The notes: generated by a model from the letters alone, not told the origin. A stretch of DNA of 53,025 bases from a virus (IMGVR_UViG_3300029787_000071:1-53025); one strand, 5' to 3'; shown: positions 3,469 through 21,248, numbered from the stretch's first letter. Numbers and translations: made by a program.

Positions 3469-3788
3469 AAAGGCATTCCTTTGGGTTTATTTATAACAGG
3501 TTTAAAATTTGTGCCAATAGATGCTACACATTCTATTTCAGGATTTATATCGGACACGCCCATCATTGTGTAAGACCCAGTTTTTGGGTTTATGTATAAA
3601 GTAAAAGTAATCATGAATTGAGTATCTCTTAACGTAAATGCGGGATACTCTCCATGTTTTGCGGCTTGAGTTGAAATACTGCCAAGCGGAAAGCACATAT
3701 TGTTAAAGGTTTGCGCCTTTACAAAAGTGATGCCACAATACAAAACACCAACAACATACATTGAAAATAGAACTATTCGTAATCTCAT
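3465..3788 (-). CDS. Small exported protein with signal peptide
   Basis: 107 aa from the ATG at 3788, chosen because it overlaps the upstream stop as TAATG; an in-frame start 12 bases earlier is possible. The N-terminus (MRLRIVLFSMYVVGVLYCGITFVKA, quoted in part: MRLRIVLF...GITFVKA) is a classical signal peptide with probable cleavage after VKA. The mature part has two cysteines and beta-like segments. It would act in the host envelope or periplasm. Function unknown; an entry-blocking or lysis-related role is possible but unsupported. Confidence 0.6.
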   Translation of the reverse strand: MRLRIVLFSMYVVGVLYCGITFVKAQTFNNMCFPLGSISTQAAKHGEYPAFTLRDTQFMITFTLYINPKTGSYTMMGVSDINPEIECVASIGTNFKPVINKPKGMPL

Positions 3789-4423
3789 TACATACCCCAA
3801 GTTTTCTTTAAATACGTCTGAACCAGAGTTGATTTTGTAAACATATCTTTTTGAGCTTTCATTAGATACGCATTTACTTCATACATGTTTTGCAAAATAA
3901 AAGACTGCTCATATGACACGTTAGAAGACATCCATCCGATTATGTTCTGCCTAAACCCCTTAGTAACTTTCTCCACACCGTGCGGGTAGATGATAGGAAA
4001 GATCACAGCTTCACCTGCGTTTAGTTTCTTACCTATTCTTCCTACCGGCGTGGCTAAAGTAAATTCTCCCCCTTCGTAGTCATCCGTTAAATTTATGCTC
4101 CAGCCGTAGTCAAAAAATACATTGTTTGATTTTGGCTGCGCTTTGAAAGCGTCTACGTGCAAGTCGTAGTAATCGCCTTCAAGGTATTTGTTATAAAAAT
4201 TTACTGATACTCTGGTAGGACAATACACGCTGTCTATGTAGTGCGTATCGTACAGCTTATCCGTAATTAGCTTCCTTACCTCGTCTGGGACACTCTTAGA
4301 TTCTTTGTTACTTTTTATGTCCTCTAGATCAGGAGCAGTATCTTCCCCATTCTTAAACGTGTTCTGGTCAATCTTGTCCAGACAAAAATTTACTTCATCT
4401 TCAGTTAATAGCTTGATAAACAT
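3788..4423 (-). CDS. 2-oxoglutarate/Fe(II)-dependent oxygenase (prolyl-4-hydroxylase-like)
   Basis: 211 aa. Contains the iron-binding facial triad H89-x-D91 (in YYDLHVDAF) and H148 (in YPHGVEKVTKG), with R158 in position to bind 2-oxoglutarate, followed by the usual GWMSS ending of the PKHD-type domain. These enzymes hydroxylate proteins or nucleic-acid bases using O2 and 2-oxoglutarate. A strong ribosome site (GGAGG, 8 bases before ATG) precedes it. The gene lies among tail and capsid genes, so a virion protein could be the substrate, but this is inference. A second such oxygenase is at 21249-21884. Confidence 0.85.
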   Translation of the reverse strand: MFIKLLTEDEVNFCLDKIDQNTFKNGEDTAPDLEDIKSNKESKSVPDEVRKLITDKLYDTHYIDSVYCPTRVSVNFYNKYLEGDYYDLHVDAFKAQPKSNNVFFDYGWSINLTDDYEGGEFTLATPVGRIGKKLNAGEAVIFPIIYPHGVEKVTKGFRQNIIGWMSSNVSYEQSFILQNMYEVNAYLMKAQKDMFTKSTLVQTYLKKTWGM

Positions 4424-13038: not shown

Positions 13039-13251
13039 TTAGTAGTCTTTTTCGTCAGCCATGCGGAAGACTGCCGGATCGACCATGTTGGTCGCTTGAC
13101 GAGGCATGTCCACCTGCAGCGCGTCACGATCAATCGGGCCGATAAGCATCTGCTCAAGACCTTCACGGTAGAGAGAACCTTCAGCCGCTTCGCTGAGTTC
13201 ACCCTGCTTGCTCATCATACTCATAATGTAATCTGCTCCATACGCTTTCAT
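13039..13251 (-). CDS. Small conserved-looking protein before the portal
   Basis: 70 aa, beginning MKAYGADYIMSMMSKQGE, with EGLEQMLIGPIDRDAL in the centre. AGGAAAACC precedes the ATG as a ribosome site. It is in line with flanking structural genes, with gaps of 17 and 15 bases. No family recognised; probably a minor head or assembly protein by context. Confidence 0.6.
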   Translation of the reverse strand: MKAYGADYIMSMMSKQGELSEAAEGSLYREGLEQMLIGPIDRDALQVDMPRQATNMVDPAVFRMADEKDY

Positions 13252-13266: not shown

Positions 13267-14586
13267 TTAATCTAAGTATAAAAATCCTCTGGGGCCTTTT
13301 AGACGGTCAGAGACTTGTTGTTTTTCCATAGCGGAAAAAGCTTCTTCATCAGCACTTCTTAATTCTTCGTAATCGGGTCCAGCCCTTTTTCGTGCTTCAA
13401 AACCTTCCATTGTAGCATCAGCCACCGGAGTTGCTGCGGCTAATTCATCAATAACCGTTAATCCAAGACCAACACCGGGAATCAACGCTTTAGCTGTTCC
13501 TCTACCACCCTTTTTGATAATGCCCAGTATGCTTTTAGTTCTCTCAGACATCGGCTTCGGCTCATCAGAGGGAAGTGGTCTGGGCTGTGGTTTCTCTTGT
13601 TCTTCAGGAGGTGAAATAAACTTAGCTGTTCTTTCTTGTATTGTTGGTGTTTCAGGAATAGCAGGTCTGGCTTCTCGTCGCGCAGCCGCCTTTCTCTGCC
13701 TGTCCTGCATCTCAATCTGAGGAGTGATTTTTGTTTGAACATATATAGGAAGAGATACTTTTTTAGCTTCCTCTATACCTTTATCAGAAATAACAAGGTT
13801 ATGAGGACGCACTCTACTTTTATCCTCAATAATTTTTCCATTCTTGTCCCTACCCGCTATAACAGGAACACCGCCTTTTTCTTTTATGGCAAATATTTCT
13901 TTGCCCCGTCTAGAGCGTCTATTCTGACCACCTTCAGAAAGGGTGCCAAGCTCTGCATCTAACTTTTTAAAAGTAAATAAATTCTTTTCATCTTTACCTG
14001 TAGGGGGGTCATCATCTTTAAGAAGACCGCTCTCGTACATGTACTGTTCATATGCTCTAAATTCATCAAGCTGTTTAGTAATACTTTCTATACCATCAGG
14101 AAAAGCTTCGTTAATATACCTATTTAAATCTCCTGCTCTATCCCTATTTGTTTTTCTAAAAGCATTAAAACGGTTTGTTAGTTCTGTAATTGATCCTCTT
14201 ACATTCTTTCCCGTCTCCTGCATCATCTTTAATACAAGATTAACCCCATCATCAGTTATATTAATGGGGGTTTTAATAGCTACCCTTCCTGATTTAGCTT
14301 TAGGTGAACCAGTTACGTTAGGTGTTAATTGTTTTCCCGGCTCTACACCAGCCTTTATCTCTGCAGCGGTGGCGCGCCTTTTAGGTAGCATATCCTCAAG
14401 ACTAAGGTCTTCAAAACTTTCTATTCCTGCTTTTTGTGCTGCCGCTTGAAAGTCCAAAGCAATATTAGTGGTAAATTTCCCTCTGTATTTTTTTTGTAAA
14501 CTCTCAAAATCATCTGCATTTAAAGAAGACCTATTCTGAGCTTTTATCTCTTCAATTACTGTTCTAATAGCATCTGCTTTTTTCAT
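13267..14586 (-). CDS. Hypothetical protein between terminase and portal
   Basis: 439 aa, not recognised. Strongly charged and mostly helical: residues 1-60 (KADAIRTVIEEIKAQN) and about 120-190 form helices; residues about 290-350 are Pro/Arg/Glu-rich and likely disordered; near residue 370 a short hydrophobic stretch (GTAKALIPGVGLGLTVIDEL) could insert in a membrane. It starts 3 bases after the terminase stop. Virion or DNA-ejection protein is a guess from position. Confidence 0.6.
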   Translation of the reverse strand: MKKADAIRTVIEEIKAQNRSSLNADDFESLQKKYRGKFTTNIALDFQAAAQKAGIESFEDLSLEDMLPKRRATAAEIKAGVEPGKQLTPNVTGSPKAKSGRVAIKTPINITDDGVNLVLKMMQETGKNVRGSITELTNRFNAFRKTNRDRAGDLNRYINEAFPDGIESITKQLDEFRAYEQYMYESGLLKDDDPPTGKDEKNLFTFKKLDAELGTLSEGGQNRRSRRGKEIFAIKEKGGVPVIAGRDKNGKIIEDKSRVRPHNLVISDKGIEEAKKVSLPIYVQTKITPQIEMQDRQRKAAARREARPAIPETPTIQERTAKFISPPEEQEKPQPRPLPSDEPKPMSERTKSILGIIKKGGRGTAKALIPGVGLGLTVIDELAAATPVADATMEGFEARKRAGPDYEELRSADEEAFSAMEKQQVSDRLKGPRGFLYLD

Positions 14587-14588
14587 GC

Positions 14589-16361
14589 TTAGTAACCAAA
14601 CGTAGAGTCAAACGGTTTTGGCTTTGCCTCTTGCATCTTGTTCATCATTGAGTTGATGGTTAGATGTCCTCTTGCGCGTGTCATGCACATGTATCGCAAA
14701 GCGTCGTAGGCGTGGTCATCTGCTTTTGTATCTACATCTTCAGGGTTTGTCTTTGACAGTGGTAGCCCTGAGAGAGTACGTATCAGATGTGTGCAGGTTG
14801 AAAGTATCTTTATTCTTGGTTGTTGTGTAAACTCGTCTACCTGCAAACGCCTGTGTAGTTCTAGTTTACCTGCAATCCTGTTTCTATCTGATGGAGTAAA
14901 TCTAGCTCCACAACGAATGAGAGTTTCAGCGATTGAAGGTCCGGTGCCTGTCCTGTTCCAACAGGAAGAGTCAAGCACCGAGTAGTACATGCCGGGATCA
15001 CCTCCCTCAAGATTTACAATGATATTGGCTAGAGTTTCTGCAGTCTGTCCTTTGCCGTAGAACTCCCTGTAAATCCAAAGGGTATCATCCCAATCAACTG
15101 CGCCCCACAGGACACAAGAGGGGGCGGCATACCCGTAGTCTGCTGCACGAAGGCGTAACCAACCTTGGGGTATCTGTGCCTGTGAGGCTTCCACAACATG
15201 AATGCTGCGGGAAAACTCTGGGAACGCCGCTCCCTCTGCGACATCCCAATCCCCTTCTAGAAGCCGCCTTCGTTCGACTTCTGGGAGCGACCTCAACATG
15301 GCTTCATATTCACCAGTTTCAGCGAGGTAGGGGTTATCAGTCAGACGCGCCGGAATGAATTTACGAAGAAACAGCGGCTGACCTGCTTTACCGTTAGTTG
15401 CTGTCTCAGGCCACAAAAGAGCGTTACCTGTATCAACATCGGTAGCTGCAAACGGTGTGTTAGGCGGTGCAGGGTCAATGTACATCTTCTTGACCCACCA
15501 ACCACCTACCCCTCCGGGGTTTCCTGTGCAGCGCATATATGCGTCAATCTGCGGGTCCGTTGTACGAAGTCTGGAGCGCAGATACTCCCACACGTAGGGA
15601 GTTGGGTAGTGCGTTATCTCGTCAATACCAATCCAAGTAAAAGCCTGACCTTGGTAGCGTGTTACGTCCTTGTCTTTGTCGAGGTAGGAGAACCATGCCG
15701 TAGCCCCAGACGGGAACTGCCACATAGCCTTGGACTCTCTGAATACGGCACCGGGAAAAGCTTTTGGATAGAGTTGTTTGCTTTTATCAACCAGTTCTGT
15801 AAGCTCGTCCAAAGTACGACGAATAATAAGAGCGCGATGATTGGGGTTGCTACAGTAGCGAAGCAGATCAGCAAGAAGAGCATAAGACTTGCCCCCGCCA
15901 GCAGCGCCGCCATAAAAAACATCCCTTTCAGGGCTTGCCAAAAAGTCAGTCTGCGGCCCCGAGTTTGGTTTGAAGATAACCTCTGCTTCATCCTCTACTA
16001 ACTCCCTTACGGGTTTTGGTACATTCTGTAGTGTGGTATCTTCAATGACCTTAGCACCGTTCTTGTTGAACAAAGCCTGTTCAACTTTCTTGATGCTGTC
16101 TTTCTTCTCTTTGGCCTTAGATGCTTTCTTCTGTGCTTTCTTCTTTGCCCTGTCCGCGTTGCGAACCGCAGCGGCAGAGGCCCGTCTCGCTCTTTCTTTT
16201 GCAGAGAGACGGTAGTTACCCTTTTCGCCCTCGGCTAATTTGGGACGGCCACGCTTGCGCTTGACAGGCTCTTCTCTTACGTCAGCTTTATCAACCAAAG
16301 GCAGGTGACTTTCGCTTGACGTTTTTCTTGTGCCTTCGCTCTGGTGATCTAAATCGTCCAA
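14589..16361 (-). CDS. terL: Terminase large subunit
   Basis: 590 aa, the packaging motor. Walker A is GGAAGGGKS at 151-159 and Walker B TWIGIDEIT at 242-250; the C-terminal nuclease has AADYGYAAP, SVLDSSC and the late KADDHAYDALRYM. The first 100 residues are a lysine/arginine-rich extension with an AT-hook core (KRKRGRPK at 35-42), unusual for this family. The start is TTG at 16361 with AAAGG upstream; no ATG fits. A small basic gene overlaps its first 71 bases. Confidence 0.92.
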   Translation of the reverse strand: MDDLDHQSEGTRKTSSESHLPLVDKADVREEPVKRKRGRPKLAEGEKGNYRLSAKERARRASAAAVRNADRAKKKAQKKASKAKEKKDSIKKVEQALFNKNGAKVIEDTTLQNVPKPVRELVEDEAEVIFKPNSGPQTDFLASPERDVFYGGAAGGGKSYALLADLLRYCSNPNHRALIIRRTLDELTELVDKSKQLYPKAFPGAVFRESKAMWQFPSGATAWFSYLDKDKDVTRYQGQAFTWIGIDEITHYPTPYVWEYLRSRLRTTDPQIDAYMRCTGNPGGVGGWWVKKMYIDPAPPNTPFAATDVDTGNALLWPETATNGKAGQPLFLRKFIPARLTDNPYLAETGEYEAMLRSLPEVERRRLLEGDWDVAEGAAFPEFSRSIHVVEASQAQIPQGWLRLRAADYGYAAPSCVLWGAVDWDDTLWIYREFYGKGQTAETLANIIVNLEGGDPGMYYSVLDSSCWNRTGTGPSIAETLIRCGARFTPSDRNRIAGKLELHRRLQVDEFTQQPRIKILSTCTHLIRTLSGLPLSKTNPEDVDTKADDHAYDALRYMCMTRARGHLTINSMMNKMQEAKPKPFDSTFGY

Positions 16362-16425
16362 GAGTTTTACCTTTGTGAAATACTATTTTACTATTGCCGC
16401 TTGTTTTCTTTTTCTTTGTTGCCAT
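16291..16425 (-). CDS. Tiny basic protein overlapping the terminase start
   Basis: 44 aa, 14 lysines or arginines or more, beginning MATKKKKTSGNSKIVFHKGK. Its ATG overlaps the stop of the upstream gene as TAATG, which argues for translation. The last 71 bases are shared with the terminase gene in a different frame. It belongs by composition to the basic-protein cluster of 16.3-20.7 kb. Function unknown. Confidence 0.5.
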   Translation of the reverse strand: MATKKKKTSGNSKIVFHKGKTLGRFRSPERRHKKNVKRKSPAFG

Positions 16426-17006
16426 TACTTTAACTTTGGTTTACGAACCCCACCGCCTTTTGCGTATGGTTTTACTTTGCCTCCCTTTGCAAACTTTAAT
16501 CTTACATTTCCTCCAATATAGCTTTCACCACTTTCCGGGTCGTACCTGCCTTGAATACCCGCTGTTCCTTTTACTCTTCCAAAATCAACAGGTCTTTCAT
16601 ATCTCGCCCCTACAGCGGGCGGTCTGCGCTGTGCTTCCTCAAGCCCCATACCCTTAAAATCGAGATTCAGATTTAGTCCCTCTGGTAGCTGGCGATTAAC
16701 AAACTTCTCGCCCTGACGGGCAATCTCTTTTACCGCATCTCTGGACGCCTTGTCCTTCAACGCTCTGGCAGAGTACTTCTCAGGATTAAGAAAGTAATCT
16801 GCAGCTATATAAGCAGCCCCCATAGCACCTTTTGCTAGCTGCTCTCTGCTTACATCTTTTTCTACATCAGGGTTAGTAATACCAATGTCCCGTGAACGAG
16901 CGGTAAAAGCCGTCTCTTGTGCTCTCTCAGACTGATCAATCTGATACTTTAAACCATCTCTGATAACGGTGACAGCCTGCTTTAGTTGTTGTTTTTGGCT
17001 AGCCAT
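16425..17006 (-). CDS. Basic protein with C-terminal AKGGGVRKPK tag
   Basis: 193 aa. A helical N-terminal region (KQQLKQAVTVIRDGLKYQ; EKDVSREQLAKGAMGAAYIAADYF) is followed by a region with GIQGRYDPESGESYIGGNVRLKF, then a tag with FAKGGKVKPYAKGGGVRKPK at the very end. The same tag recurs in at least three other proteins of this cluster. No known domain. It overlaps both neighbours by a few bases, so it is part of the late operon. Confidence 0.65.
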   Translation of the reverse strand: MASQKQQLKQAVTVIRDGLKYQIDQSERAQETAFTARSRDIGITNPDVEKDVSREQLAKGAMGAAYIAADYFLNPEKYSARALKDKASRDAVKEIARQGEKFVNRQLPEGLNLNLDFKGMGLEEAQRRPPAVGARYERPVDFGRVKGTAGIQGRYDPESGESYIGGNVRLKFAKGGKVKPYAKGGGVRKPKLK

Positions 17007-17187
17007 TTTGAATTATGTTATCCTCCATAACTAATCCACGGTCAATTGCAAAAGCGCGTGTCATAAAATCTTCTGTAAGTTTTATCTCAGTGCTTTTGTA
17101 AAACTTGCCCTTACCACGAATGTAGCAGGGATAGCTCAAGGGTTTTCTGGTTCGCGATAGTGTGACTTCTACATAAATTTTATTCAT
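16999..17187 (-). CDS. Small hypothetical protein
   Basis: 62 aa, beginning MNKIYVEVTLSRTRKP. Its start overlaps the end of the terminase small subunit gene and its stop lies inside the start of the next gene, the tight packing typical of real genes here. No motif recognised. Confidence 0.55.
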   Translation of the reverse strand: MNKIYVEVTLSRTRKPLSYPCYIRGKGKFYKSTEIKLTEDFMTRAFAIDRGLVMEDNIIQNG

Positions 17188-17608
17188 GGTCTATGATAAC
17201 AGGGTCCACTTGCCCTGATTTCGCCGGAAGAAGAACCACTCCGTGTATAGCAGTAACATTATGTTCAACCTTATCATGCTTACCCACGCCTACTCTGTTT
17301 AAAATAGATTCTGCTGCTTTAATACGCTGTTCAGCGCGTGGGGTTGTTCCGTCATCGTCCAGTGCATTTACCAGACCTGCCGCTGCTTTTACTGAGTTAG
17401 CGGCTAACATGTTCTTTGCTCTCTCTACAATCTCATCGGCTAGAGAGTTCATAACTGCTTTACCAGTGGTTTCACAGTAGCCTGCTGCGCGTAAAGCTGC
17501 AGCGTTGTTACCACCATTATCCATGAGTGCATCAAGATACGCAAGCTGTTTTTCTGTTAGCTGGCGTTTTTTATTTTTAGTGGGTAAAAGACCTTCCTGT
17601 GCCATCAA
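17180..17608 (-). CDS. terS: Terminase small subunit
   Basis: 142 aa. N-terminal helix-turn-helix pattern LTEKQLAYLDALMDNGGN followed by AAALRAAGYCE, as in terminase_2-type small subunits that recognise packaging DNA; then helices (EQRIKAAESILNRVGV) for ring assembly. It lies upstream of the large subunit in the late operon with two or three tiny basic genes between. The end of the gene overlaps the next start by 8 bases. Confidence 0.8.
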   Translation of the reverse strand: MMAQEGLLPTKNKKRQLTEKQLAYLDALMDNGGNNAAALRAAGYCETTGKAVMNSLADEIVERAKNMLAANSVKAAAGLVNALDDDGTTPRAEQRIKAAESILNRVGVGKHDKVEHNVTAIHGVVLLPAKSGQVDPVIIDHE

Positions 17609-18090
17609 TAACGTACTTTACGTACTCCTCCACCCATTGCGTATTCTTTTTTAAACCCTTTAATCCCTGCAACAATGCCGCCCTCTTTCATACCAGCAAC
17701 TTTATTGCGATTCATCTCCATCAGGCTCTGCTGCGGATTTTGCTGCATGGTTCCTGCACCCATAATCTTATTTTTATCCGGTGTGCCGGTCTGAGCCATG
17801 CCTCCCATGTACATTTTCTTTTTCACTGACTTCTTCCTCTTCATCGTGGCGACATTCGTTGGCTTACCGCCGACACCTTGCGGCTTGGCTCTTTTACGAG
17901 CAACGGCGCTCTTTCTTTCTCCCGCTGTCATGGACTTGGCTTTGGAGCGCGGCACACACTTAGGGTAGGCACGTTTAGACTTAGACGCAGACTTTCGACC
18001 ACAAGCCTGAAACTTGCCATCTTTCTTGGGTGCGCCAATGTCTACCCAATCCCCCTTGGGGCCTTTGCCGAACCACTCCTTGAGGCTCAT
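17605..18090 (-). CDS. DUF5872-like basic protein with GGGVRK tag
   Basis: 161 aa from ATG 18090 (overlaps the upstream stop as TAATG; a longer in-frame start at 18132 has no such support). The first 75 residues (MSLKEWFGKGPKGDWVDIGA; KFQACGRKSASKSKR; YPKCVPRSKAKSMT) match my memory of DUF5872, a small basic family of marine phages and algae-linked viruses with conserved cysteines. The C-terminus ends EYAMGGGVRKVRY. Very lysine-rich; a DNA-binding or internal head role is possible but unproven. Confidence 0.7.
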   Translation of the reverse strand: MSLKEWFGKGPKGDWVDIGAPKKDGKFQACGRKSASKSKRAYPKCVPRSKAKSMTAGERKSAVARKRAKPQGVGGKPTNVATMKRKKSVKKKMYMGGMAQTGTPDKNKIMGAGTMQQNPQQSLMEMNRNKVAGMKEGGIVAGIKGFKKEYAMGGGVRKVRY

Positions 18091-18269
18091 TAGTAAGTCC
18101 CGCCTCGTTTCTTGTACGTGCGGACTAACCAAGCGTTTGCATACGCGCTGGGGTAGACTTTGAACTTACGTTTAGCCTCTGCCTTCACTCTTGCGTACAG
18201 AGCTTTATTCTTAGGCGTAGGAGACTTGCTACTTTTTTTTGCCTTTGGCTTTGCTTTTTTTGCTGGCAT
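18090..18269 (-). CDS. Small basic protein (ARVKAEAKRKFKVYPSAYAN family)
   Basis: 59 aa, starting MPAKKAKPKAKKSS and ending in a well-ordered block: LYARVKAEAKRKF, KVYPSAYANAWLVR, TYKKRGGTY. I recall this short block from many marine phage genomes, with no known function. The gene overlaps the 3' end of the 18229-18555 gene by 41 bases and its stop overlaps the next ATG (TAATG). Lysine and arginine make up over a third of the protein. Confidence 0.75.
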   Translation of the reverse strand: MPAKKAKPKAKKSSKSPTPKNKALYARVKAEAKRKFKVYPSAYANAWLVRTYKKRGGTY

Positions 18270-18555
18270 TGCGTATCGCCTCTTTTCCTTTTTTAGCTAT
18301 TGAAACAACCTGTGTCTTACCCATGACCTTTGCACGTTGTTCCATTACAGTTAGTATCTGTATCTTTCTTGCAAAAGGTTTATTTACTCTTTTTACCTTT
18401 GCAACAGTCGCTCTTGCTTCTGCAGGAGTAGCAAACTTTATACTAACAGTATCCTTGGGGTTCTCATCAGTGTAAAGTCTTCGATCAGAACCTTTTGGCT
18501 TTTTGCCTGTTCCTTTTTTTGGATCAGGTTTTCTTTTTGCCACTTTTCTGCTCAA
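18229..18555 (-). CDS. Small basic hypothetical protein
   Basis: 108 aa, isoelectric point clearly high. The N-terminus MSRKVAKRKPDPKKGTGKKP and C-terminus (KKSKAKGKKK) are lysine tails around a folded-looking core, TVSIKFATPAEARATVAKVKR and RKIQILTVMEQRAKVM. Overlaps both neighbours, as is usual in this cluster. No family recognised. Confidence 0.6.
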   Translation of the reverse strand: MSRKVAKRKPDPKKGTGKKPKGSDRRLYTDENPKDTVSIKFATPAEARATVAKVKRVNKPFARKIQILTVMEQRAKVMGKTQVVSIAKKGKEAIRNASKKSKAKGKKK

Positions 18556-18889
18556 GGATTTTTACAAGCTTAGGAGGCAGGTTTTTCCTCTGCGCTGCGG
18601 TTACGGGTCCACCCTTTGCCATCATTCTCATGCCACGCGCCATCATATCTGTGTCACGGGCGCTCATGCCCATTCCACGCGCCATTCCGCCACGGGCCAT
18701 GCCCTTGCTTTTCTTCATGGCACCACCTTTAGCCATGCCTTTTGTGGTCTTGCCACCTTTAGCCATGTACTTGGAGGTCTTACCACCTTTAGCCATGCCT
18801 TTGCTTTTTTTCATAGCACCGCCTCTAGCCATGCCCTTAGTGGTCTTGCCACCTTTAGCCATGTATTTAGTCTTCTTCTTAGCAGCCAT
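18524..18889 (-). CDS. MAKGG-repeat basic protein
   Basis: 121 aa. The first 70 residues consist of repeats of (K)xMA(K/R)GG(K/A)xxK: a 32-residue unit occurs twice, each built of three 9-12-residue subunits such as KYMAKGGKTTK. The last 30 residues (PVTAAQRKNLPPKLVKILEQ) look folded. Composition is Lys, Gly, Met, Ala. Such a repeat could bind DNA or RNA along its length, but this is inference. It is in the operon with other GG-tagged proteins. Confidence 0.65.
   Translation of the reverse strand: MAAKKKTKYMAKGGKTTKGMARGGAMKKSKGMAKGGKTSKYMAKGGKTTKGMAKGGAMKKSKGMARGGMARGMGMSARDTDMMARGMRMMAKGGPVTAAQRKNLPPKLVKILEQKSGKKKT
18700..18880 (-). repeat. 96-bp tandem repeat inside the MAKGG gene
   Basis: Two copies of a roughly 96-base unit (32 codons), differing mainly at third codon positions, for example the paired segments around 18699-18727 and 18796-18823. 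The divergence at silent sites suggests the repeat is old and kept at the protein level. Confidence 0.6.
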
Positions 18890-18894
18890 TGGTT

Positions 18895-19554
18895 CTAATC
18901 CTTTGCGTATAAGTTATCAAATGTAATGCTGGGGTCCATGTAGCTATCATTAATCTCTGCACTGTGTGTGTGTTGGCTAGGCACAAAGTCTGGTGGACCT
19001 TCACCTGTAACCCACAAAGCAGGATTTGTAACCCGTACCCTGTTGTTGGGGAGAGCAACTATATTTCCTGTAAACTCTCCTGCGTCTATTAGCTCTAGCA
19101 CATGAGATTGTTTGTGCTGCGCTGGGTCGTCTGAAATGTGACTGTCGGTGTAGTCCACAGTGAACATATACCGACCTGTATAAAACTCTCCCCCTATCTT
19201 ACACATCCAAGGGCTAGACGATACTCTGTCCATGCTAAAGACTGCGTGGTTTCTGGAGGAGCAGTCCCAAGGTTGTGCAAAGTGAGTGGGCATCTTTTGC
19301 GGCCACTCTTCAAGAATACTATCAGCGACTAATGCTGTGATGGGCATTCTAGCCCACATAGCTCCACCGTGAATATTCTCTTCTTCTTCACAGCCAGTAA
19401 ACACTACGTTAAAACTAAGACATCTGTCCGGTATTGTATTTACTGCTATTGCTAGTGCATGAAGGTACTCTCCCTCATACTCTACGTGATTATGTGTAAA
19501 CTCTTTACGCACCCAACACTTAAAGTGTGGGATATTAGAGGCTAAGTAAGCCAT
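18895..19554 (-). CDS. Conserved-looking hypothetical phage protein
   Basis: 219 aa, acidic to neutral and unlike its basic neighbours. It begins MAYLASNIPHFKCWVRKEF and has blocks VVFTGCEEEENIHGGAMWAR, CSSRNHAVFSMDRVSS and GEFYTGRYMFTVDYTDSH, with many His, Cys and aromatic residues. Similar proteins occur in marine phage genomes by memory, without assigned function. It could be enzymatic or metal-binding; nothing decisive is visible. Confidence 0.65.
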   Translation of the reverse strand: MAYLASNIPHFKCWVRKEFTHNHVEYEGEYLHALAIAVNTIPDRCLSFNVVFTGCEEEENIHGGAMWARMPITALVADSILEEWPQKMPTHFAQPWDCSSRNHAVFSMDRVSSSPWMCKIGGEFYTGRYMFTVDYTDSHISDDPAQHKQSHVLELIDAGEFTGNIVALPNNRVRVTNPALWVTGEGPPDFVPSQHTHSAEINDSYMDPSITFDNLYAKD

Positions 19555-19576
19555 AATACTCTCTACTAAGGTTGGG

Positions 19577-19978
19577 CTAGCACTTCCATCTTTTTCTAGC
19601 CTGACGCAGACGGCTATTTGGATCTCTAGCCGCCTTGGGAAACTTCTTCATCTGTCCTGCAGAGCGAGCGCAGAAGGACTTACGTCTCTTCGCGTCTTTG
19701 CTACCGGGTTCAACCTTGCCAGTAACAGCGCCCTTTAGTTTAGAGCCGGGGTTAGCCTTGCGATATGCTTTAATGCCCTTCTCGGTCATGCCAGCGCCCT
19801 TCTTAGTGGGTCGCTTCATTCCCTTACCTTTGGGCATTACATCAGGCTTCCTGACTCCTCCTCCCTTTGCGTACTCCTTACGGCTAATCGCTGCCACCTT
19901 CTCTGACTGCCGCTTGTGCAGCTTGGAGGCTTTGTTTAGCTGTTGTGAGACTTCCCTTAGTTCTTCCTTTGCGGACAT
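19577..19978 (-). CDS. DUF6321-like basic protein with GGGVRKP motif
   Basis: 133 aa. Residues about 1-35 form a coiled coil (KEELREVSQQLNKASKLHKR); then EYAKGGGVRKPD; then a conserved block with MTEKGIKAYRKANPGSKLK, AVTGKVEPGSKDAKRRKSFC, ARSAGQMKKFPKAARDPNSR and an Arg/Lys-rich end RQARKRWKC. The last block is, from memory, the widespread phage family DUF6321. Very basic, so possibly nucleic-acid-binding. Function is not established. Confidence 0.7.
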   Translation of the reverse strand: MSAKEELREVSQQLNKASKLHKRQSEKVAAISRKEYAKGGGVRKPDVMPKGKGMKRPTKKGAGMTEKGIKAYRKANPGSKLKGAVTGKVEPGSKDAKRRKSFCARSAGQMKKFPKAARDPNSRLRQARKRWKC

Positions 19979-19979
19979 T

Positions 19980-20195
19980 TTACTTTTTCACATTTCGAGG
20001 TGGATTAGAATACTGTTTTTGTACGCTTTCTCTAAACTTTTTTATCCCTGCGCTATCCTCAGACGGAGAGGTTCCGCTCTTTACAGGTTTTGGTTTACCA
20101 TCGCTGCCCAACAGACCAAATGTAACATTATAAAGGGCCTTCATACGGGCCTTATGTTGGGCGGTTCCACTAATAGAAAGCTTTTTAGTAGCCAT
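19980..20195 (-). CDS. Small hypothetical protein
   Basis: 71 aa, MATKKLSISGTAQHKARMKA..., basic, with a short helix near the end (GIKKFRESVQKQY). One base separates its stop from the next start and one from the previous stop. No family recognised; part of the basic-protein run. Confidence 0.55.
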   Translation of the reverse strand: MATKKLSISGTAQHKARMKALYNVTFGLLGSDGKPKPVKSGTSPSEDSAGIKKFRESVQKQYSNPPRNVKK

Positions 20196-20196
20196 T

Positions 20197-20733
20197 TTAC
20201 TTCATCCTCGGTTTACGAATAGGTCCACCCATTCTACGGTTCATGGCATATACCTTGCCACCACCAGCTTTCTTTTGACTCTTATAAGCAGCGGCTCCTC
20301 TTCCAAGCTGAATGGCTTTGTCTGTAGCTTCTTTTAGCTCTTTGCTGCCCCCATAGGGTTTTCCCTCTTGAGAGGGTTCAGGATTTATCATGTTATCCAT
20401 GATAGATGCTACAGCACCACTAAAGCTTTTTTTAGCGGCTGCAATCTTTTCAGCCGTTAGCGGCGGTCTTGCTCTAGAACCAACGCGCTTTCCAACAGCA
20501 GCATCTGCTTGCGCTCTATCCATACCAGCTTTGGCCGCGCTTACTTTTGAGTTAAACCGCTTCTGCATCATACGCATCGCTTTTCTGCGCTGGGCGTTAG
20601 TAGCCCCTTCTTTTTTAGCAGACGCATCAAACTCTTTTAAAAGTGCACCCGGACTTCTACGCCCTTCAACTACTTTTTCTAACGCTTCGTCTAAATCTCT
20701 ATTTGTAATTTCAATTTTTCCAAATTTAGCCAT
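20197..20733 (-). CDS. Basic helical protein with C-terminal GGPIRKPRMK tag
   Basis: 178 aa. Mostly helical and basic (DEALEKVVEGRRSPGALLKEF; AQRRKAMRMMQKRF; ISAAKAGMDRAQADAAV-like segments), with a C-terminal end AGGGKVYAMNRRMGGPIRKP that resembles the GGGVRKP tag of neighbouring proteins. Its start shares one base with the stop of the cysteine-rich gene. Function unknown; structural or DNA-binding by composition. Confidence 0.6.
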   Translation of the reverse strand: MAKFGKIEITNRDLDEALEKVVEGRRSPGALLKEFDASAKKEGATNAQRRKAMRMMQKRFNSKVSAAKAGMDRAQADAAVGKRVGSRARPPLTAEKIAAAKKSFSGAVASIMDNMINPEPSQEGKPYGGSKELKEATDKAIQLGRGAAAYKSQKKAGGGKVYAMNRRMGGPIRKPRMK

Positions 20734-20927
20734 TACCCGTACCTCCCTTGTTTTTTGTACATCTGCTTACAATGGCAATCTCCACAGTCACAATGAAGAC
20801 ATGGCTCTGGGCAATGACACTCCTGCGGTTGACATACGCATGTGATGCACTGATCATCTTCTTTTTGTTTTTCTGGCGTGTGTTGAATCATGTAGAACGC
20901 CGCGTATGGTCCTTGATATGCAGACAT
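20733..20927 (-). CDS. Cysteine-rich metallothionein-like protein
   Basis: 64 aa with ten cysteines between residues 27 and 53 (27, 30, 32, 37, 39, 43, 46, 48, 51, 53) in CxC and CxxC pairs, with three histidines among them, such as CLHCDCGDCHC. This pattern suits binding of zinc or copper ions, as in bacterial metallothioneins. It is the first gene after a near-perfect leftward promoter, so it should be strongly transcribed; the leader lacks an obvious Shine-Dalgarno sequence. The role (metal buffering, structural metal site, or redox) is open. Confidence 0.6.
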   Translation of the reverse strand: MSAYQGPYAAFYMIQHTPEKQKEDDQCITCVCQPQECHCPEPCLHCDCGDCHCKQMYKKQGRYG

Positions 20928-21040: not shown

Positions 21041-21068
21041 ATTATAACGTCTATATAGGACTTGTCAA
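21041..21068 (-). promoter_or_regulatory. Leftward sigma70 promoter of the late block
   Basis: On the minus strand TTGACA (21068-21063), 16-base spacer, TATAAT (21046-21041): both hexamers are perfect. It would start transcription about 21034, giving a leader near 105 bases before the cysteine-rich gene and then the structural genes. It mirrors the rightward promoter at 21110-21137. Confidence 0.85.
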
Positions 21069-21083
21069 GAAAAAAAGTTAAGC

Positions 21084-21103
21084 TGAGTGCAAATGAGTGC
21101 ATT
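21084..21103. promoter_or_regulatory. Phased direct repeat between divergent promoters (operator candidate)
   Basis: Two copies of TGAGTGCA, at 21084-21091 and 21094-21101, exactly 10 bases apart, one helical turn, so both face the same side of DNA. They lie between the two divergent promoters, about 15 bases from the leftward -35 box and 7 from the rightward one. This is a likely binding site for a regulator that controls both directions. Confidence 0.55.
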
Positions 21104-21109
21104 TTTTGC

Positions 21110-21137
21110 TTGACAGATTGGAAATGGGCTGTATAAT
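21110..21137 (+). promoter_or_regulatory. Rightward sigma70 promoter for the 2OG oxygenase gene
   Basis: TTGACA (21110-21115), 16-base spacer, TATAAT (21132-21137), perfect hexamers and the same spacing as the leftward partner. Transcription would begin near 21144, upstream of a GC hairpin and tandem repeats in the leader. Confidence 0.85.
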
Positions 21138-21180: not shown

Positions 21181-21197
21181 CTTAATATTAGCCCATA

Positions 21198-21237
21198 TTG
21201 TAATATAATTACCCAATTTTGTAATAAAATTACCCAA
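21198..21237 (+). repeat. Tandem 19-base repeats just before the oxygenase gene
   Basis: TTGTAATATAATTACCCAA (21198-21216) and TTGTAATAAAATTACCCAA (21219-21237) differ at one base and have a 21-base period, two helical turns. Each holds a palindrome-like core GTAAT..ATTAC. They lie within the transcribed leader and end 5 bases before the first ATG, so a protein bound there, or to the RNA, could block expression. Confidence 0.6.
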
Positions 21238-21248
21238 AAGGAATGAAT

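Follow-up and report, generated by a model that had tools for sequence, protein, structure and literature searches.

A C-terminal peptide tag on about 30 different proteins of one HMO-2011-like phage clade: a possible signal for loading into the head

In one HMO-2011-like clade of marine podoviruses, a single short peptide is joined to about 30 different protein bodies, mostly small and basic and encoded around the terminase genes. The tag is ~12 residues long, with the consensus K-x-Y-A-K-G-G-G-V-R-K-P-K when one representative per body cluster is taken. Judged from sequence, it may be a C-terminal sorting tag that loads small basic proteins into the head, a reading we place just short of an even chance; head loading is its likeliest use because the tag sits among packaging genes and untagged homologues are linked to the virion.

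The window (the whole stretch of DNA analysed, a virus contig of 53,025 bases) derives from an HMO-2011-like marine podovirus, as judged by its TerL (phrog_979), SU10-type portal and adaptor, phrog_267 capsid protein, DnaB-like helicase and family A DNA polymerase. The nearest isolates by TerL are HMO-2011 and the CRP and HTVC phages (~51–56% identical), which have a similar module order. Homologous TerL and portal both assign the window to the HMO-2011 type, and in the TerL tree it lies outside the HMO-2011 branch. The GGGVRKP tag was not found among the HMO-2011-type isolates examined; HMO-2011 has weak look-alikes in protein ends reading RGGMVKKRK and RGGMAKKKK. Elsewhere in the window, a 2OG-Fe(II) oxygenase-like protein (phrog_61, 3788–4423) is encoded between the capsid and adaptor genes, and small ORFs before the portal (13039–13251 and, in relative contig L086, 4341–4859) end MADEKDY or MAEERDY, common to HTVC033P.

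The original prediction placed about ten small lysine-rich proteins between the terminase and a promoter that it called late. The cluster holds 13 ORFs up to position 20927 (Table 1), ten of which are basic as described (pI 9.5–12), the other three being TerS (pI 6.4), the phrog_3704 protein (pI 5.1) and the Cys-rich ORF (pI 6.0). It lies upstream of TerL, with TerS itself inside the cluster, and the promoter faces it. All four tag-bearing ORFs were found where they had been placed, on the minus strand, and more than half of the basic proteins are without the tag. The DUF5872 match of ORF 18090–18269 is above the curated cut-off and covers only profile positions 1–38 of 116; DUF6321 in ORF 19577–19978 scores 48.0 bits against a curated cut-off of 28.5. 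TerL carries an AT-hook-like KRKRGRPK and a lysine-rich stretch ahead of its ATPase domain, and a 21-base tandem repeat (21183–21237) lies near the divergent promoter pair (21041–21137).

Table 1 Features of the cluster between TerL and the divergent promoters
Feature	Coordinates	Strand	Remarks
TerL, terminase large subunit	14589–16361	−	Directly downstream of cluster
44-aa Lys/Arg-rich ORF, pI 12, untagged	16291–16425	−	Overlaps TerL start
193-aa basic protein adjoining TerL	16425–17006	−	No family match; ends FAKGGKVKPYAKGGGVRKPKLK
C-terminal tag YAKGGGVRKPKLK of ORF 16425–17006	16428–16466	−	
Half-tag AKGGKVKP, upstream of full tag in ORF 16425–17006	16467–16490	−	
62-aa ORF, untagged	16999–17187	−	
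TerS, terminase small subunit	17180–17608	−	phrog_51, E 6e-6; Terminase_2 below cut-off
175-aa basic protein, phrog_23735 (CGR/WxDI...KC) domain	17605–18132	−	Ends YAMGGGVRKVRY
C-terminal tag YAMGGGVRKVRY of ORF 17605–18132	17608–17643	−	
59-aa protein, partial DUF5872 (PF19197) match	18090–18269	−	37.1 bits, cut-off 27.5
108-aa basic protein, untagged	18229–18555	−	Conserved in HTVC033P and cyanomyophages
121-aa protein of MA(K/R)GG repeats	18524–18889	−	
219-aa acidic phrog_3704 protein, untagged	18895–19554	−	
133-aa protein: N-terminal helix, internal tag, DUF6321 (PF19846)	19577–19978	−	
Internal tag YAKGGGVRKP of ORF 19577–19978	19844–19873	−	Low-confidence linker in model
71-aa basic protein, untagged	19980–20195	−	
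178-aa basic protein, no family match	20197–20733	−	Ends NRRMGGPIRKPRMK
C-terminal tag NRRMGGPIRKPRMK of ORF 20197–20733	20200–20241	−	
64-aa Cys-rich ORF, untagged	20733–20927	−	First gene of unit
Sigma-70-type promoter, TTGACA-16-TATAAT, 12/12 consensus	21041–21068	−	Toward cluster
Divergent twin promoter, also perfect TTGACA-16-TATAAT	21110–21137	+	Between cluster and gene at 21243

Within the window, the pattern GG.[VI]RK is confined to four ORFs (six frames, 323 ORFs of at least 40 aa), three times C-terminal and once internal. The internal copy (YAKGGGVRKPD) sits between the N-terminal helix and the DUF6321 domain of ORF 19577–19978. Composition shuffles of each ORF gave a mean of 0.04 tagged ORFs and a maximum of 1 in 2000, against four observed, and when the final 22 residues of 69 window genes were compared without bias, the two top-scoring pairs were tag pairs (47 and 39; null maximum 38). 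The copies spell the same residues with different codons, ~half of the shared residues being encoded differently. Chance or composition is ruled out by these shuffles together with the permuted pattern described below, and a DNA-level repeat by the codon differences. A fifth protein (18524–18889) had been described as built of MA(K/R)GG repeats; the repeats are confirmed but the tag is absent there. The MAKGG-repeat proteins of relatives L027 and L029 do end in the tag (AYAMGGG(V/I)RK).

Relatives were fetched from IMG/VR viral contigs in three ways: by TerL, by the DUF6321 protein and by the tag DNA pattern alone. Many of these contigs are fragments, and E-values of the related-locus search are valid only for its candidates. 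Among 139 distinct tagged ORFs, 115 end 2–6 residues past the tag; in the remaining 24 the tag lies at least 30 residues from the end, mostly in the DUF6321 family with its internal copy. A half-tag, (A/N/S)(K/R)GG(K/S/T)(V/I)K, often precedes the full tag by about ten residues. Two positions outside the selection pattern, Y at −3 and K at −5, are nevertheless present in 31 of 34 clusters. When ORFs were selected only by K.Y[ASTN].GG near the C terminus, R then K followed in 55 of 66 non-redundant cases, and K for R, or R for K, occurred at the core positions in none of the 66. Since this selection omits R and K and still recovers both, the two residues are fixed and non-interchangeable. The same protein families also carry variants that lack the glycines (YSNAPRKPRLK and YSNARSRKTKKA, for example); the core is therefore Y ... 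R-K-(P/V/T)-(K/R). In the family of ORF 16425–17006 (21 members), Y, RKP and LK are invariant while the bodies drop to 26% identity.

Longer or related protein ends occur elsewhere. The gene after TerL in L070, L078, L207 and L208 encodes proteins of 322–357 aa ending RKPYAMGGKVY(S/G)NS(V/T)RKPKFK, a longer tag variant that is lacking from the window ORF at the same position (13267–14586). Three structural-module proteins (L163, 99–776; L174, 5702–6379; L199, 3223–3540) end KMYSYGGRVAKYKD, and in L174 this protein includes a transglycosylase/endolysin-like domain.

The tag is highly enriched in related genomes, a check that the original prediction had set: its DNA pattern matched 79 stretches in viral contigs and none when permuted against the same collection, and in 12 long relatives the reversed pattern gave one match against 15 forward. 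All 50 tagged rows of the TerL tree fall within one supported clade of 54. Two of the four untagged rows (L032 and L038) end in variants without GG, and absence from the other two may reflect short upstream sequence. In an untagged sister clade (L052, L055 and L063), a possible further tag, (Q/H)GGM(I/V)HRGR(Q/K)AG, lies close to the end of the ORF just before or overlapping the TerL start. A tblastn search of the tag against isolated phages, insensitive for so short a query, gave no match. The pattern had two matches in 257 Gb of cellular genomes, one within a 308-aa reading frame of a MAG contig and distant from the end of that frame, and the other in no ORF of at least 40 aa; we rejected the tag as a cellular feature.

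Tagged genes recur in a characteristic order: a Cys-rich gene, basic and tagged genes, TerS, at least one tagged gene and TerL. Among the 79 loci fetched by tag DNA alone, 62 contain TerS and 59 TerL, and TerS homologues adjoin tags in relatives. A further set of contigs carries a tagged gene between a phrog_13678/MCP block and the tail genes. Other neighbours of tagged genes are a transglycosylase-like gene ending SYGGRVAKYKD and a 1405-aa gene.

With the tag trimmed off, the bodies form 34 clusters, or 32 after profile comparison at probability 50. We give their number as about 30, since one cluster (L134) probably lacks a genuine tag and homology is difficult to rule out for clusters of a single sequence. 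With ~32 separate bodies, the tagged genes do not form one paralogous family, although single-member clusters make this a weak test. DUF6321 and the CGR domain are untagged in other phages and tagged in this clade; ten other tagged bodies have no Pfam or PHROGs match. One relative (L044, 1185–2618) encodes a 477-aa tagged protein with a HELTH motif (HExxH, zinc-peptidase-like) that likewise lacks a Pfam or PHROG match and for which viral contigs yielded no further relative; near its N terminus it carries YTNPSRKPK, resembling the glycine-less variant. Structure models added little: that of the ORF 16425–17006 family (N-terminal helices, then strands) is unusable at pLDDT 46, and that of DUF6321 has a pTM of 0.37. 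The viral fold search with the DUF6321 model gave confident matches to DUF6321 proteins and a few unnamed ones, a cyanophage S-SCSM1 virion protein among them; no relative of solved structure was found.

This S-SCSM1 protein links the cluster's domains to the virion. DUF6321 occurs in 526 phage records, mostly of cyanophages, and S-SCSM1 gp029, encoded shortly upstream of TerL and bearing the product name ‘virion protein’, joins three cluster domains in one chain: a CGR domain (E 7e-8 with ORF 17605–18132), DUF6321 (E 2e-13 with ORF 19577–19978) and a DUF5872-like stretch matching weakly (E 2e-4 with ORF 18090–18269). PHROGs 3477 and 727 also hold two of the three. Mass spectrometry (MS) detected 45 phage proteins in S-SCSM1 virions (PMC9602691); the virion status of gp029 is taken here from its GenBank product name, not from the peptide table. 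In S-CREM2, ORF137 carries DUF6321, lies between TerS and TerL and was detected by MS of CsCl-purified virions with four unique peptides, its authors cautioning about co-purifying proteins (PMC10665884). This MS support concerns tag-free domain homologues at low coverage (4.1%). The window resembles these T4-like cyanophages in having homologous domains beside the terminase genes and differs from S-SCSM1, with its one long untagged polypeptide, in having separate small genes, two of the three tagged. In cyanomyophages the gp16–gp17 gap has been described as a hot spot of variable genes (PMC3037559). The literature yielded no paper on DUF6321 or the tag, the sole text match to GGGVRKP being an unrelated synthetic peptide.

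Two known systems offer parallels. Like the capsid targeting sequence (CTS) of T4, found on internal proteins and Alt, the tag places one short peptide on different proteins of one phage. The CTS is an N-terminal propeptide of 10–20 residues that directs proteins into the prohead and is removed by the prohead protease (PMC5694885). The tag, by contrast, is basic and mostly C-terminal, and no cleavage motif was found in it. It also resembles, in design though not in membership, the cargo-loading peptides of encapsulins, being a C-terminal peptide on non-homologous proteins. Those peptides are short, usually C-terminal, present on unrelated cargo and bound by an HK97-fold shell; the encapsulin shell is a nanocompartment, unlike the phage with terminase considered here, and we know of no sequence match between the two kinds of peptide.

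A common partner, as originally proposed, is well supported by some 30 bodies with no detectable homology, one sequence-specific C-terminal peptide, the non-exchangeable R and K and the strong enrichment in related genomes. A role in the head gains indirect support from the packaging- or structural-module place and from the virion-linked homologues, evidence that concerns the domains and not the tag. Nothing points to a protease: the tag shows no acidic prohead-protease motif of the AxE kind reported for SPN3US, and no protease was found among the subset of window ORFs scanned with Pfam. DNA is the main rival, though an unlikely one. The tag would then be a tether, lying for example in a DNA groove, and the small proteins would condense phage DNA in the manner of histones, either during replication or once packaged, making a protein receptor unnecessary. 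Most cluster proteins have a pI of 10–12, the tag itself bears ~five positive charges and the MA(K/R)GG protein repeats similar basic units, yet charge alone leaves unexplained the unswapped core K and R and the conservation of uncharged Y, A, V and P, and one tagged body is the 477-aa HELTH protein.

The flanking of TerS and TerL by tagged genes in most loci would also suit a tag that docks on a component of the packaging motor, be it TerS, TerL or the portal, or on a different assembly factor, with the proteins acting unpackaged in the infected cell. We regard this as improbable, given that tagged genes lie elsewhere between capsid and tail genes or beside the 1405-aa gene, and that homologues of three cluster domains are parts of a protein whose annotation reads ‘virion protein’. 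Short C-terminal peptides often address host factors, and an address to a host membrane, the ribosome, RNA polymerase or a protease (with the tag serving as degron or stabiliser) would be compatible with the many bodies sharing the tag; its packaging-module place and its restriction to a single phage clade suit a partner from the phage no less well, leaving a host target only a slim chance. It is very doubtful indeed that the tag is a relic with no shared function, stemming from duplication of gene ends or from basic tails of low complexity. Some tag ends may be recent copies, since the same-codon fraction of tag pairs (0.49) exceeds the expected 0.37, but the tag stays nearly invariant on the divergent ORF 16425–17006 bodies, its permuted form has no matches and codon usage differs at about half of the shared residues.

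For head loading, the reading we prefer, we infer the tag's partner, the entry of tagged proteins into the head and their delivery to the host. Late in assembly, the tag would bind a single partner located at the nascent head or within it, candidates being the scaffold, the portal, the inner capsid surface or the DNA–terminase complex. A changeable set of small proteins of nucleic-acid-binding type, with occasional enzymes, would thereby be loaded into the prohead and would enter the next host together with the DNA. More tentatively, the tag could be a C-terminal loading code of general use, probably left uncleaved, by which one clade of marine podoviruses brings diverse cargo (basic proteins of DNA-binding type, a putative HExxH enzyme) into the head for delivery with the genome, cargo genes being exchanged freely and the tag retained.

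The finding connects two domains with the virion: DUF6321, present in hundreds of cyanophage records, and DUF5872. Because the tag picks out, by sequence alone, unannotated proteins that probably act together, it offers functional predictions for many genes labelled ‘hypothetical’ in an abundant group of marine phages. Should it prove to be a loading signal, it would offer a possible tool for putting proteins into podovirus heads and would reveal what these phages carry into their hosts in the way of proteins.
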